From Flavobacteriales bacterium (lineage in GTDB: Bacteria; Bacteroidota; Bacteroidia; Flavobacteriales_D; Sanyastnellaceae), in NCBI GenBank assembly GCA_027491215.1, contig JAIXWP010000121.1:1-40394 (forward strand): a stretch of DNA of 40,394 bases, written 5' to 3'. Shown here piece after piece: positions 32,265 to 36,360 of this stretch. The notes under the pieces are model-generated. The model was not told where the DNA came from. It saw only the letters and a program-made list of their open reading frames with translations, and did not search any database. A program made the position numbers and the translations under genes. The stretch's first letter is position 1. Each line of letters begins with the position of its first letter.

Positions 32265-32579
32265 ATGCATTCTCTGTTAGAAAATAATATAGAAAAAATC
32301 AAACAACTTTGTCTTTCATTGAGAGTGAAGAAACTGTATGTATTTGGGTCCATTGCTACTGATAGATTTGATTCTAAAAGCGATATTGATTTTTTATTTT
32401 CCTTTTCTGAGGGCCTAACATTCAAAGAATATACTGAAAATTATTTTAAGCTCCATTATCAGTTGCGTGAAATTCTAAAAAGGGAAATAGATATGGTATC
32501 TGAAAACTCATTATCGAATCCATTCTTTATTCAAAGTGTAAATGAAACGAAAGCATTGATTTATGAAGAGAGAGATTAA
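32265..32579 (+). CDS. mntA: MNT-domain nucleotidyltransferase, antitoxin of HEPN/MNT pair (MntA-like)
   Basis: A 104-residue minimal nucleotidyltransferase. The polymerase-beta-fold motif GSX10DXD is complete: G28-S29 in YVFGSIATD, then D40-I-D42 in SKSDIDFLF, with a third acidic residue at D76 in REIDMVSE. In characterised type VII systems this enzyme transfers AMP from ATP to a tyrosine of the HEPN toxin and neutralises it. It overlaps the toxin gene by 17 bases, the usual arrangement. The DNA is more AT-rich than its neighbours, consistent with acquisition. Family is confident; AMP transfer here is inferred. Confidence 0.9.
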   Translation: MHSLLENNIEKIKQLCLSLRVKKLYVFGSIATDRFDSKSDIDFLFSFSEGLTFKEYTENYFKLHYQLREILKREIDMVSENSLSNPFFIQSVNETKALIYEERD

Positions 32580-32913
32580 AAAGTACCTCTACGACATCAA
32601 CGTTGCAATTGATTCCATTTACGAGTACTTGGGGGATAAGAGGGACTTTACCGCTTATCAAAAGAATAAGCAACAGCGCAGGGCGGTAGAAAGAGAAATC
32701 GAAATTATAGGTGAAGCTACTCAGAGAGTTCTAAAATTAGATGCTGGTATTATTATCTCAAGTGCTAGACAAATTGTTGATACAAGGAATTGGGTAATTC
32801 ACGGGTATGACAAGGTGGATGATGTTGTTATTTGGGGAATAATTTCCAATCATCTTCCAATTCTAAAAGAAGAAGTCCTGAAGATGCTTTCTGAATCTGA
32901 TAACCAAGAATAG
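32563..32913 (+). CDS. hepT: HEPN-domain RNase toxin (HepT-like, DUF86)
   Basis: A 116-residue helical HEPN protein. The catalytic RX4HXY motif is complete: R75-NWVI-H80-G-Y82. The DUF86 block NKQQRRAVEREIEIIGEATQRV (~35-56) is typical. Known HepT toxins cut RNA or tRNA as dimers, and the Tyr of RX4HXY is the residue AMPylated by the partner MntA. The start codon lies 17 bases inside the antitoxin gene. It converges on the DUF2256 gene with 12 bases between stops and no hairpin terminator. Confidence 0.9.
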   Translation: MKREIKKYLYDINVAIDSIYEYLGDKRDFTAYQKNKQQRRAVEREIEIIGEATQRVLKLDAGIIISSARQIVDTRNWVIHGYDKVDDVVIWGIISNHLPILKEEVLKMLSESDNQE

Positions 32914-33076: not shown

Positions 33077-34042
33077 TCAATAGTACTTTCCCGGAAGCAG
33101 ATAGTTCTTCACGTAATCACTTACACCTTCTTCAAGCGTATGGAAAGGCTTACTGTAGCCAATACCAATTAACTTGCTCATGTCTGCTTCTGTGAAGTAT
33201 TGATATTTATCTCTGATGTCAACTGGTGTTTCTATGAAGTCGATTTGAGGTTGTTTTTCTAGCGCTGCAAACGTTGCATTTGCTAGGTCTTTGAACATGC
33301 GAGCTTTGCCTGAACCTAGGTTATAGATTCCCGAATCTTTTCGATGATGCATTAAGAACATGCATACTTCAACTACATCTTTTACATAGACAAAATCACG
33401 CATCTGGCCTCCATCAGTAAAGTCAGGGCGATGTGACTTGAAAAGTCGCATAGAACCTTTCTCTTGAATTTGATGGAAGGCATGCATAATCACAGAAGCC
33501 ATTCTGCCTTTGTGGTATTCATTGGGACCATAAACATTGAAAAACTTCAAACCTGCCCAAAACATGGGAGTTTCTGTTTGTTGCAATGCCCAAATGTCAA
33601 AATCATTTTTACTGTCGCCGTATGGATTTAGCGGCTTTAATTGTGGAATGATATTATGATCGTCTTTGTAGCCAAACTCACCGCCACCATATGTTGCAGC
33701 CGAAGAAGCATATACCAGAGGAAGAGACTTCGCTGCACAAATTTTCCAAATCGTTTTGGTGTATTCTAAATTCAGACGATCGAAAATTTCTTTGTCAAAT
33801 TCGGTGGTGTCCGTGCGAGCGCCGAGGTGAAAGACGAATTGTACCTGAGCCTCATTTTTTTCAAGCCATGCTGGGAAGTCCATACGATCCACAAGCTCAA
33901 CGTATTTCTTGCCCTCGAAATTTTTGTTTTTTTCTGGACGAGAAAAATCATCGACTAATACTAGGTCGTTGAAGCGATCTTCGTTTAAACGGCTAACCAA
34001 ACAGCTAGAAATGAATCCAGCAGCACCAGTGACAACAATCAT
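33077..34042 (-). CDS. hldD: ADP-L-glycero-D-manno-heptose 6-epimerase
   Basis: A 321-residue short-chain dehydrogenase that epimerises ADP-D-glycero-D-manno-heptose to the L form for the lipopolysaccharide core. It is cytoplasmic and binds NADP. Landmarks are [26 protein letters not shown]141-GDS-K145 in [11 protein letters not shown], and [19 protein letters not shown] followed by [11 protein letters not shown], all as in E. coli HldD. The product suggests heptose-containing LPS or a heptosylated S-layer/polysaccharide. The other heptose genes are not in the window. A TAACTTGCG sequence on the minus strand lies 26 bases upstream (34074-34066). DUF2256 follows. Confidence 0.93.
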
Positions 34043-34096: not shown

Positions 34097-34105
34097 TATC
34101 TTTGC
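34097..34105 (+). promoter_or_regulatory. -7 element of the pterin operon
   Basis: TATCTTTG (34097-34104) followed by C is an exact TAnnTTTG match, 19 bases before the ATG at 34123. No clear -33 box. The region is shared with the divergent hldD promoter. Confidence 0.55.
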
Positions 34106-34122
34106 AGCCCAAATTTTACATG

Positions 34123-34548
34123 ATGTCAAAAATAGTCTATGTCACTCGTCGCGAACGATTCAATGCAGCTCACAAACTCGCAAATCCGCTTTGGGATGAC
34201 GAAACAAATAAAAAGATCTTTGGAAAATGTTCTAATCCTAATTGGCATGGACACAACTATGATCTTTTTGTAACGGTAAAGGGAGAGCCTCAACCTGAGA
34301 CTGGTTTTTGCATTGATTTGAAGTATTTGAGCGATATCATTGAAGAGCGTGTTACGGATAAGCTCGATCACAAAAACTTAAATATTGATGTGGATTTCAT
34401 GCAAGGAATTTTGACATCAACAGAAAATTTGGCAATTGCAATTTGGGAACAACTTGAAGCTGCTATCGCAGAAAAAGGTTGTATCTTGCATAGTGTAAAA
34501 CTTTATGAAACAGAAAATAACTTCGTAGAATACTTCGGAGGAAAATAG
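34123..34548 (+). CDS. ptpS: 6-pyruvoyltetrahydropterin synthase (biopterin type, PTPS-II)
   Basis: A 141-residue zinc enzyme that converts dihydroneopterin triphosphate to 6-pyruvoyltetrahydropterin. Zinc ligands are H17, H42 and H44, and the catalytic Cys is C36, in [13 protein letters not shown]. The spacing C-x5-HGH is that of animal PTPS, whereas QueD has C-x3-HGH. The following [21 protein letters not shown] and [14 protein letters not shown] also follow the animal enzyme. folE, which makes the substrate, starts 7 bases downstream. A second ATG directly upstream (34120) is possible. The product is probably tetrahydrobiopterin, given sepiapterin-reductase-type activity elsewhere. Confidence 0.88.
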
Positions 34549-34555
34549 ACATCGA

Positions 34556-35146
34556 ATGGAAGAGTCAAAAGAGCTTTCGGCTAGTCAACAGAAAATCGCT
34601 TCGGCAGTGGAGGTAATCCTTGGTCAGATTGGAGAAGATCCAACGCGCCAGGGCTTGCTGAAAACGCCCGAGCGTGTAGCCAAAGCTTATGACTTTCTAA
34701 CGCAAGGTTACCAGCAAAGCGCAGAGGATGTGCTACGTGGAGCCATATTCGATGAGTCTTATAGCGAAATGGTATTGGTGAAGGACATTGAAGTCTATAG
34801 CTTATGCGAACACCACATGCTTCCGTTTTTTGGAAAGGCACATATTGCCTACATCCCTAACGGAAAGATTGTTGGACTGAGCAAAATACCAAGAGTGGTC
34901 GATGTGTTTGCCCGACGATTGCAGGTCCAAGAGCGATTGACGATAGAGATCCGAGATTGTATCCAAGAAACCCTGCAACCCTTGGGAGTAGCCGTGGTGA
35001 TAGAGTGTCACCATTTATGCATGCAAATGCGCGGTGTTCAAAAACAAAATTCACATACAACCACCAGCGCTTTCAGTGGAGAATTCCTTAACAACGACAA
35101 AACTCGCAAAGAGTTCATCCAACTGATTGGCGCTCGATTGAGCTAA
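34556..35146 (+). CDS. folE: GTP cyclohydrolase I
   Basis: A 196-residue zinc enzyme that opens GTP to 7,8-dihydroneopterin triphosphate, the first step of folate and biopterin synthesis. Zinc ligands are C84 and H87 in [20 protein letters not shown] and C155 in [11 protein letters not shown]. The conserved [16 protein letters not shown] (~29-44) and [24 protein letters not shown] blocks are intact. It is the middle gene of the operon, between the PTPS gene (7 bases upstream) and an MFS transporter (2 bases downstream). Close linkage to the PTPS suggests dedication to biopterin supply as well as folate. Confidence 0.97.
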
Positions 35147-35148
35147 TC

Positions 35149-36360
35149 ATGACTTCATTTTTAAATCTTATAAAAAATGCCTACGGCGGACTAGACCGCA
35201 CGATGTGGCTTTTGGCATTAATACAATTCATCAACCGCAGTGGAACGATGGTAGTGGTTTTTCTTTCCGTTTATCTGAAAGATGACCTTGGCTTTTCCTT
35301 GGGGCAAGTGGGTACAGTGATGGCGTTATTTGGCGCGGGCAGTATCACTGGTTCTTTTTTTGGCGGTCGACTCATCGATAAAATCGGTTTTTATCGCATT
35401 ATGTTTTTTAGCCTCTTCTTTGGAGGCCTGGCATTCATTTTAGTTGGATGGGTGCGAAACTTTGCAGCGTTGGCAGTGGCGATGTTTTTCATGAGTGCCA
35501 TCTCCGAATCCTTTAGACCTGCGAACATGGCGGCTATGTCCATTTACAGCAAGCCTGAAACATATACTAGATCGGTTGCATTGAGTAGACTCGCAATGAA
35601 TCTTGGGTTTTCTATTGGTCCAGCGATTGGAGGCTTTTTGGCATCGATCGACTACAACCTCATTTTCTGGGTAGACGGTATTACATGTCTCATCGCAGCA
35701 GGGATATTGAAGATGTATATAAAGGAAAAAAGAGCACCAAAGAAAGAAAAAGCAGAAGCACATGTATCGAGTAAATCTCCTTACAAGGATAAAATCTACC
35801 TTTTGTTTTTACCTATTTGTGTGTTTTACATCGTTTCATTTTTCCAATTCTTCTCTACGATGCCTCTGTACTATAAAGATGTAGAGCACTTCACAGAAAT
35901 AGAAATTGGATGGTTGATGGCCTTGAATGGTTTGATAGTGGCGGTTTTTGAAATGGTGTTGATTTACAAGTATGAGAAGAAAACGAGCATCTACAACTTC
36001 ATTGCTTGGGGAAGCGTGTTGCTTATTTTAAGCTACATCTCCTTGGTATTCTGGGGAGGTTGGTGGTGGTTGGTATTCTTGACCATTGTGATTTCATTCT
36101 CAGAAATGTTGGCCTTGCCGTTTATGAATACCTTCATGAATAATAGAGCTCCAGTAGAAAGTAAAGGTCAATACGCATCGCTTTATGTAATGGCTTGGGC
36201 CGTAGCACAAATCATCACTCCATTGATCGCTACTAATATGATTGCGCTTTCGGGATATAATGGTCTATGGCTACTTTTAGCGGGATTTGCCGTGGCTACT
36301 ATTCTCGGTATTAAATGGCTCGAGCGATTAGTAGTACGCGAGAAAGCAGATGCGTCTTAA
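35149..36360 (+). CDS. Major facilitator superfamily transporter (DHA1/MdtH-like)
   Basis: A 403-residue inner-membrane transporter with about twelve hydrophobic segments in two halves. The MFS loop 2-3 motif is GGRLIDKIGFYRIMF, with a motif-C-like RLAMNLGFSIGPAIGGFLAS in helix 5, which is typical of drug/H+ antiporters. The central cytoplasmic loop is basic (KRAPKKEKAEAHVSSK). It starts 2 bases after folE, so it is probably co-transcribed. The substrate is unknown, and a link to pterins is only positional. The stop overlaps the stop of the convergent methyltransferase gene (TTAA at 36357-36360). Confidence 0.88.
   Translation: MTSFLNLIKNAYGGLDRTMWLLALIQFINRSGTMVVVFLSVYLKDDLGFSLGQVGTVMALFGAGSITGSFFGGRLIDKIGFYRIMFFSLFFGGLAFILVGWVRNFAALAVAMFFMSAISESFRPANMAAMSIYSKPETYTRSVALSRLAMNLGFSIGPAIGGFLASIDYNLIFWVDGITCLIAAGILKMYIKEKRAPKKEKAEAHVSSKSPYKDKIYLLFLPICVFYIVSFFQFFSTMPLYYKDVEHFTEIEIGWLMALNGLIVAVFEMVLIYKYEKKTSIYNFIAWGSVLLILSYISLVFWGGWWWLVFLTIVISFSEMLALPFMNTFMNNRAPVESKGQYASLYVMAWAVAQIITPLIATNMIALSGYNGLWLLLAGFAVATILGIKWLERLVVREKADAS

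Follow-up and report, generated by a model that had tools for sequence, protein, structure and literature searches.

The 6-pyruvoyltetrahydropterin synthase (PTPS) gene of this Flavobacteriales bacterium and the adjoining folE gene form, with a probability of about two in three, the entry point for the synthesis of a tetrahydrobiopterin (BH4)-type cofactor, with PTPS as its first committed enzyme. According to its predicted sequence, the protein is a PTPS-II of the animal type (class A in the following) and not a QueD. The locus is a standard ptpS-folE pair of the Bacteroidota that is not special to this genome, and the PTPS-II/folE neighborhood as such has already been published. This reading builds on what was directly observed: the protein family, the residues of the active site, the operon-like spacing, the broad conservation in Bacteroidota, and the presence of a pterin-carbinolamine dehydratase. 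The window, i.e., the whole stretch of 40,394 nucleotides that was analyzed, comprises the complete contig C54; the genome has a size of 3.17 Mb and a completeness of 99.95%. The following features of the window are relevant:

33077 to 34042, minus strand: rfaD/hldD, ADP-glyceromanno-heptose 6-epimerase, divergent neighbor (TIGR02197, 376.1 bits, cut-off 274.6)
34097 to 34104, plus strand: TATCTTTG, putative -7 promoter element fitting TAnnTTTG, 15 bases upstream of an in-frame ATG (34120)
34123 to 34548, plus strand: PTPS open reading frame (ORF), 141 aa, with ATG at 34123 and a further in-frame ATG at 34120
34556 to 35146, plus strand: folE, GTP cyclohydrolase I, 196 aa, exceeding the NCBIfam FolE cut-offs; the genome has a second folE
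35149 to 36360, plus strand: MFS transporter, 403 aa, Pfam MFS_1

The genes for PTPS, FolE, and the MFS protein are arranged in operon-like order on the plus strand with gaps of 7 and then 2 bases between the ORFs; the sizes of these gaps agree with the original prediction. The respective Pfam E-values are 1.1e-34 (PTPS), 1.6e-78 (GTP_cyclohydroI), and 2.3e-54 (MFS_1). The short gap ahead of this operon contains TATCTTTG, which fits TAnnTTTG, presumably the -7 promoter element of Bacteroidota. A pattern search showed that TAnnTTTG is depleted in the window, with 13 occurrences compared to 36.3 expected in shuffles. TATCTTTG is a putative promoter element, and no matching -33 element was established for it. 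The divergently oriented rfaD has matches inside the 1.5 kb flanks of 28 of 30 PTPS loci (own genome plus 29 others) in variable orientation; this adjacency is regarded as housekeeping synteny rather than as belonging to the pterin function. At positions 32265 to 32913, the window contains two small genes with an overlap of 17 bases. One encodes a nucleotidyltransferase of the Polbeta type with 104 aa (PF18765, E 2.6e-14), the other a HepT-like ribonuclease with 116 aa (PF01934, E 9.3e-17); together they have the composition of an MntA/HepT toxin-antitoxin pair.

The window translation of PTPS contains the motif C36-SNPNW-HGH and a TSTENLA block. The prediction that a C36-x5-HGH spacing is that of animal PTPS and not the C-x3-HGH of QueD was confirmed, as the spacing is present and the zinc and catalytic positions of the rat enzyme are matched; TSTENLA and a second flanking block are likewise present as originally quoted. 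In an alignment of the rat and the window PTPS, 59 of 132 residues (44.7%) are identical, and H17, H42, H44, C36, D82, H83, and E129 of the window protein align with rat positions. By equivalence with the rat enzyme, H17, H42, and H44 are presumably zinc ligands, while C36, D82, and H83 presumably function in catalysis and E129 in pterin binding. A phmmer search against the PDB had its best matches with the human enzyme 3i2b (E 1.6e-36) and with 1b66 (E 1.6e-35), which we take to be the rat enzyme, followed by 2g64 from a worm (2.5e-25), 2oba (3.7e-7), and 2dj6 (3e-6). The top entry named 6-carboxytetrahydropterin synthase was the E. coli QueD 4ntm (E 5.9e-5); the animal enzymes match better than QueD by some 30 orders of magnitude. 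An AlphaFold2 model of the window PTPS (mean pLDDT 90.1) matches the rat structure 1gtq with a Z-score of 18.8 over 138 residues. The protein exceeds the cut-off of the Pfam PTPS model (119.5 bits, cut-off 22.4). It misses NCBIfam TIGR00039 (85.4 bits, cut-off 125.5), which counts against the assignment, but this model names the whole PTPS/QueD family, and falling short of it does not separate subfamilies. The window enzyme resembles the animal enzymes from rat (1b66/1gtq) and human (3i2b) in the CxxxxxHGH motif, the zinc and catalytic positions, the fold, and the degree of identity, whereas it differs from them in being bacterial, in adjoining folE, and in forming its own tree branch apart from two animal rows (see below). 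It very probably catalyzes the same reaction as animal PTPS. In the available passages of PMC5041015, CxxxxxHGH designates PTPS-II, CxxxHGH QueD, and ExxHGH PTPS-III, and canonical PTPS activity in vitro is reported for the PTPS-II of Synechococcus, which falls under the same subfamily motif rule as the window protein.

PTPS and QueD (E. coli 4ntk, 4ntm) have a common fold, the same type of catalytic chemistry, and many common residues, and the model of the window protein matches E. coli QueD with a Z-score of 16.3 over 114-120 residues. A function of the window PTPS as QueD feeding queuosine synthesis is nevertheless very improbable. Its spacing is not the CxxxHGH of QueD, its score with the QueD model TIGR03367 is below the cut-off (61.2 bits, cut-off 89.25), some relatives encode separate CxxxHGH proteins, and full-length QueC is absent from the own genome and the 119 relatives that together make up the 120 genomes searched. 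QueC matches were obtained in 80 of the 120 genomes and were over the cut-off in 63 including the own genome, but none extended beyond 103 of 210 positions; the controls E. coli and B. subtilis were positive in this search. A family scan of the two partial QueC matches of the own genome identified them as TilS and MnmA. The queuosine role was rejected on the basis of motif, QueD cut-off, and missing QueC. Hardly more probable is a PTPS-III role, in which the enzyme would bypass FolB by producing 6-hydroxymethyldihydropterin for folate synthesis. The adjoining folE, the position of folK inside the window about 3.6 kb downstream of folE, and the fact that a FolB match is missing in 16 of 120 genomes would be in agreement with such a bypass. 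However, the window protein has P-N-W preceding HGH in place of the ExxHGH that is given for PTPS-III in the accessible text of PMC5041015, and FolB is encoded in the own genome on contig C20; the motif (PNWHGH) and the presence of FolB led to the rejection of this candidate. Altogether, the absence of QueC and the presence of FolB argue against the queuosine and FolB-bypass roles.

A PTPS match was found by protein search in 116 of the 120 genomes. The class A type of the window was assigned to 105 of them based on identity of at least 53% and E-value, with sequences inspected for a part of the genomes and with G004 represented by a fragment only. When named genomes were scanned and the best 80 of 583 relatives were considered, 79 of the 80 were labeled as Bacteroidota, among them Pedobacter, Hymenobacter, Sphingobacterium, Bacteroidales, Cyclobacteriaceae, Saprospiraceae, and others, and one as Glaciecola. 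In 68 of these best 80 of 583, folE is found beside PTPS in the same orientation and no more than 800 bases away. The 12 loci without a folE match (L119, L135, L142, L143, L144, L148, L150, L154, L159, L160, L161, and L166) include four in which PTPS itself was missed by quick ORF picking (L135, L142, L154, and L160) and one, L143, with a sequence that stops 161 bases past its PTPS match. In a set of 30 loci (the own one and 29 others), 27 have folE directly next to PTPS in the same orientation; the exceptions are L010 and L011, in which folE lies beyond rfaD, and L013, which shows a fragment. In the Glaciecola-labeled record (CP034120.1, Glaciecola amylolytica), the surroundings of the class A PTPS (L162:10001-10411) include rfaD, folE, and a BI-1-like gene. 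The record bears the label of a gammaproteobacterium and has a Bacteroidota-like gene set, and its PTPS branches next to that of G117; either transfer or a mislabeled record would explain it.

In the part of PMC5445326 that was accessible, a PTPS-II cluster (cluster 71) of 1183 sequences with folE (PF01227) as neighbor is described, which agrees with the window locus in motif and in this neighbor. The folE coverage of that cluster is at most 0.13 in that text, compared to the 68 of 80 window-type loci mentioned above, and its passages on PTPS-II do not mention Bacteroidota. Added here to that description is the MFS gene, which is found at this position in two genomes only. A search of the open-licence literature retrieved no paper on the function of PTPS-II from Bacteroidota.

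Two further PTPS types are present among the 120 genomes. Class B, which has 45-56% identity, occurs in 27 genomes; the own genome is not among them, and both genomes of the same genus carry it. All 16 class B sequences fetched have the C-x5-HGH spacing, and 11 of 16 contain CNNPN[YF]HGH. The third type (class C) has the QueD-like CxxxHGH in all 10 proteins fetched. These QueD-type proteins (L076-L085) occur in genomes without a full-length QueC match. Of 10 class A rows in this fetched set, 9 were available (L091 was lost). In a 62-row tree, classes A, B, and C form separate groups with supports of 98/91, 96/98, and 100/99, respectively. The two animal rows are outside A and B, and the forks placing them have supports of 91/64 and 89/77. 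The partial, long-branched 2oba, which has a QueD-type motif, falls on the A/B/animal side, and E. coli QueD is not in the tree. With the 2oba row on the PTPS-II side, this tree by itself is no basis for setting QueD apart.

The MFS gene had been proposed to encode a possible pterin transporter, and this part of the prediction is not supported by the comparison of genomes. An exporter or importer for the pterin made by the operon would fit the start of the MFS gene 2 bases past folE and the conserved PTPS-folE-MFS order in the congener G002. However, PTPS is found in 116 of 120 genomes and a homolog of the MFS protein (E <=1e-20) in only 31 of 120. This homolog is beside folE in only two of these 31, the own genome and G002, whereas in the other 29 it is located on a contig other than that of PTPS and folE or, in G013, 1.8 Mb away. 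Furthermore, the MFS protein matches only MFS_1 and MFS_1_like in Pfam at E <=0.001 and no folate/biopterin transporter family. Pterin transport is accordingly improbable, and the most likely explanation for the MFS gene is that of a co-transcribed, incidental neighbor. One neighboring gene is thus a poor ground for naming a pterin transporter.

For the ptpS-folE pair as entry point of a cofactor pathway, the following reaction sequence is proposed. FolE would convert GTP into dihydroneopterin triphosphate, from which PTPS-II would form 6-pyruvoyltetrahydropterin. Subsequently, a short-chain reductase (SDR), possibly the one encoded behind the second folE (see below), would produce BH4 or a close relative. 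After use of the cofactor by some oxygenase, pterin-carbinolamine dehydratase would recycle it. In this sequence, the product of the PTPS reaction and the step of the reductase are predicted, as is the user, both in its existence and in its nature; a BH4-type tetrahydropterin is the probable end product. A gene for the dehydratase, whose presence the original prediction had proposed to check, was found in the own genome (C134:3280-3513, E 4.8e-27), and the nearest solved relatives of its product are named dehydratases. Dehydratase matches with E <=0.001 were obtained in 99 of 120 genomes including the own one, with one of them (G112) below the family cut-off. They are more frequent in genomes with class A PTPS (89 of 105) than in those without it (10 of 15), but this difference is not significant (Fisher p 0.14). 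The dehydratase is weak evidence for BH4, because a role of this family in Moco metabolism has been reported (PMC3223725, as far as its text was available).

No sepiapterin reductase could be named. With the sepiapterin reductase model (cut-off 206.55 bits), none of the 120 genomes was over the cut-off, but neither was any of 14 controls, including Synechococcus elongatus, a known BH4 producer according to the available part of PMC5227711. Nearly full-length SDR matches of relatives below this cut-off (E down to 6.5e-39, in G100) may be true sepiapterin reductases. The own genome has seven SDR matches to this model, five of which were scanned for family, with L192 and L194 left out. The best of the seven, on C31, was rejected as sepiapterin reductase, being a FabG over the FabG cut-off. 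The SDR on C141 matches 2bd0, an entry named sepiapterin reductase and presumably the enzyme from Chlorobium, with E 5.5e-23, although this entry is outscored by 36 other sequences.

Only 1 base downstream of the second folE of the own genome (C19:4215-4886), a gene for an SDR of 229 aa begins; L206:4215-5577 covers both genes. This SDR has many weak family matches, including the pteridine reductase model, for which it is below the cut-off (101.9 of 288 bits), and is a candidate pterin reductase by gene neighborhood only. Among 23 loci outside the first class B set, an SDR is beside the second-type folE in four (own genome, G002, G021, and G067); of the 19 without SDR, four (L212, L221, L226, and L227) end less than 300 bases downstream of folE, so that an SDR could be missed there. 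In class B loci, an SDR is present in 7 of 16, all seven of which have PTPS-B, folE, and a photolyase gene, and four of these seven also have a phytoene-synthase-like gene and a CarH-like regulator. The tyrosine of the YxxxK motif, a usual SDR residue, is absent from all 11 SDRs (11/11) and replaced by I or V.

Class B clusters of this kind are found in relatives from the same order at L062:2570-10324, L069:525-8937, L070:1205-9752, and L075:857-9252. They contain genes for PTPS-II class B, FolE, the Tyr-less SDR, a photolyase-family protein, phytoene desaturase, a phytoene-synthase-like protein, isopentenyl-diphosphate isomerase, a CarH-like B12-binding MerR regulator, and an ECF sigma factor (family scans were done on L062 only). 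This composition points to an induction of pterin synthesis by light, with photoprotection or a photolyase antenna as conceivable purposes. A light-regulated folM-folE-folX operon has been reported for Pseudomonas mendocina (PMC9758184) and serves as an analogy for the second-type PTPS/folE/SDR cluster that relatives have next to a CarH-like regulator and a photolyase. In contrast to that cluster, no PTPS is named for the P. mendocina operon in the passages available, and nothing alike is present at the window locus.

Regarding users of the cofactor, a gene for an aromatic amino acid hydroxylase (AAAH), for which the original prediction had proposed to look, has no match in the own, 99.95% complete genome; 35 of 120 genomes have one. 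AAAH matches are not associated with class A PTPS (30 of 105 genomes with and 5 of 15 without it). Most of the other AAAH matches are in frames of about 240-300 aa, and L200:523-2277 encodes a protein of 585 aa in which the match to the biopterin hydroxylase domain falls into two separate stretches. The NO synthase oxygenase also has no match in the own genome and matches in 19 of 120, 18 of which belong to three genera of the family of the window (e.g., L196:1324-2712). Thus, the prediction of BH4 synthesis stands with regard to the animal-type PTPS, its pairing with folE, and the dehydratase, while AAAH and NO synthase are without a match. A total lack of BH4-using enzymes, which had been named as evidence against it, is nearly what was found in the own genome; one PF04116 protein, which is fatty-acid-hydroxylase-like, remains.

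This protein of 291 aa, encoded on contig C101, is the sole PF04116 match of the own genome; of the 120 genomes, 102 have such a match. It could be the user of the cofactor as an AGMO- or OlsE-like di-iron hydroxylase. AGMO is presumably a member of the PF04116 family, and we know of no pterin requirement of OlsE. For AGMO, BH4 is described as a requirement in the literature passages available. The C101 protein resembles the ornithine-lipid hydroxylase OlsE (121 bits, cut-off 475), and 14 of the 105 class A genomes, six of them at least 93% complete, have no match for PF04116, AAAH, or NO synthase; its role as user is therefore unlikely. AGMO candidates of relatives (L198 and L199, 432 and 436 aa) match PF04116 alone in Pfam, and L198 has no match in the PDB at E <=1.

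Because these 14 of 105 genomes lack all three, it is conceivable, though we propose it with low confidence, that many Bacteroidota keep a dedicated tetrahydropterin for an oxygenase family that is not yet recognized as pterin-dependent; this cofactor would be made via the ptpS-folE pair and in some cases finished by the Tyr-less SDR. An animal-type BH4 enzyme is routine in many Bacteroidota. A vague annotation thereby becomes a question accessible to experiment, namely what the tetrahydropterin serves in genomes that have neither hydroxylases nor NO synthase.
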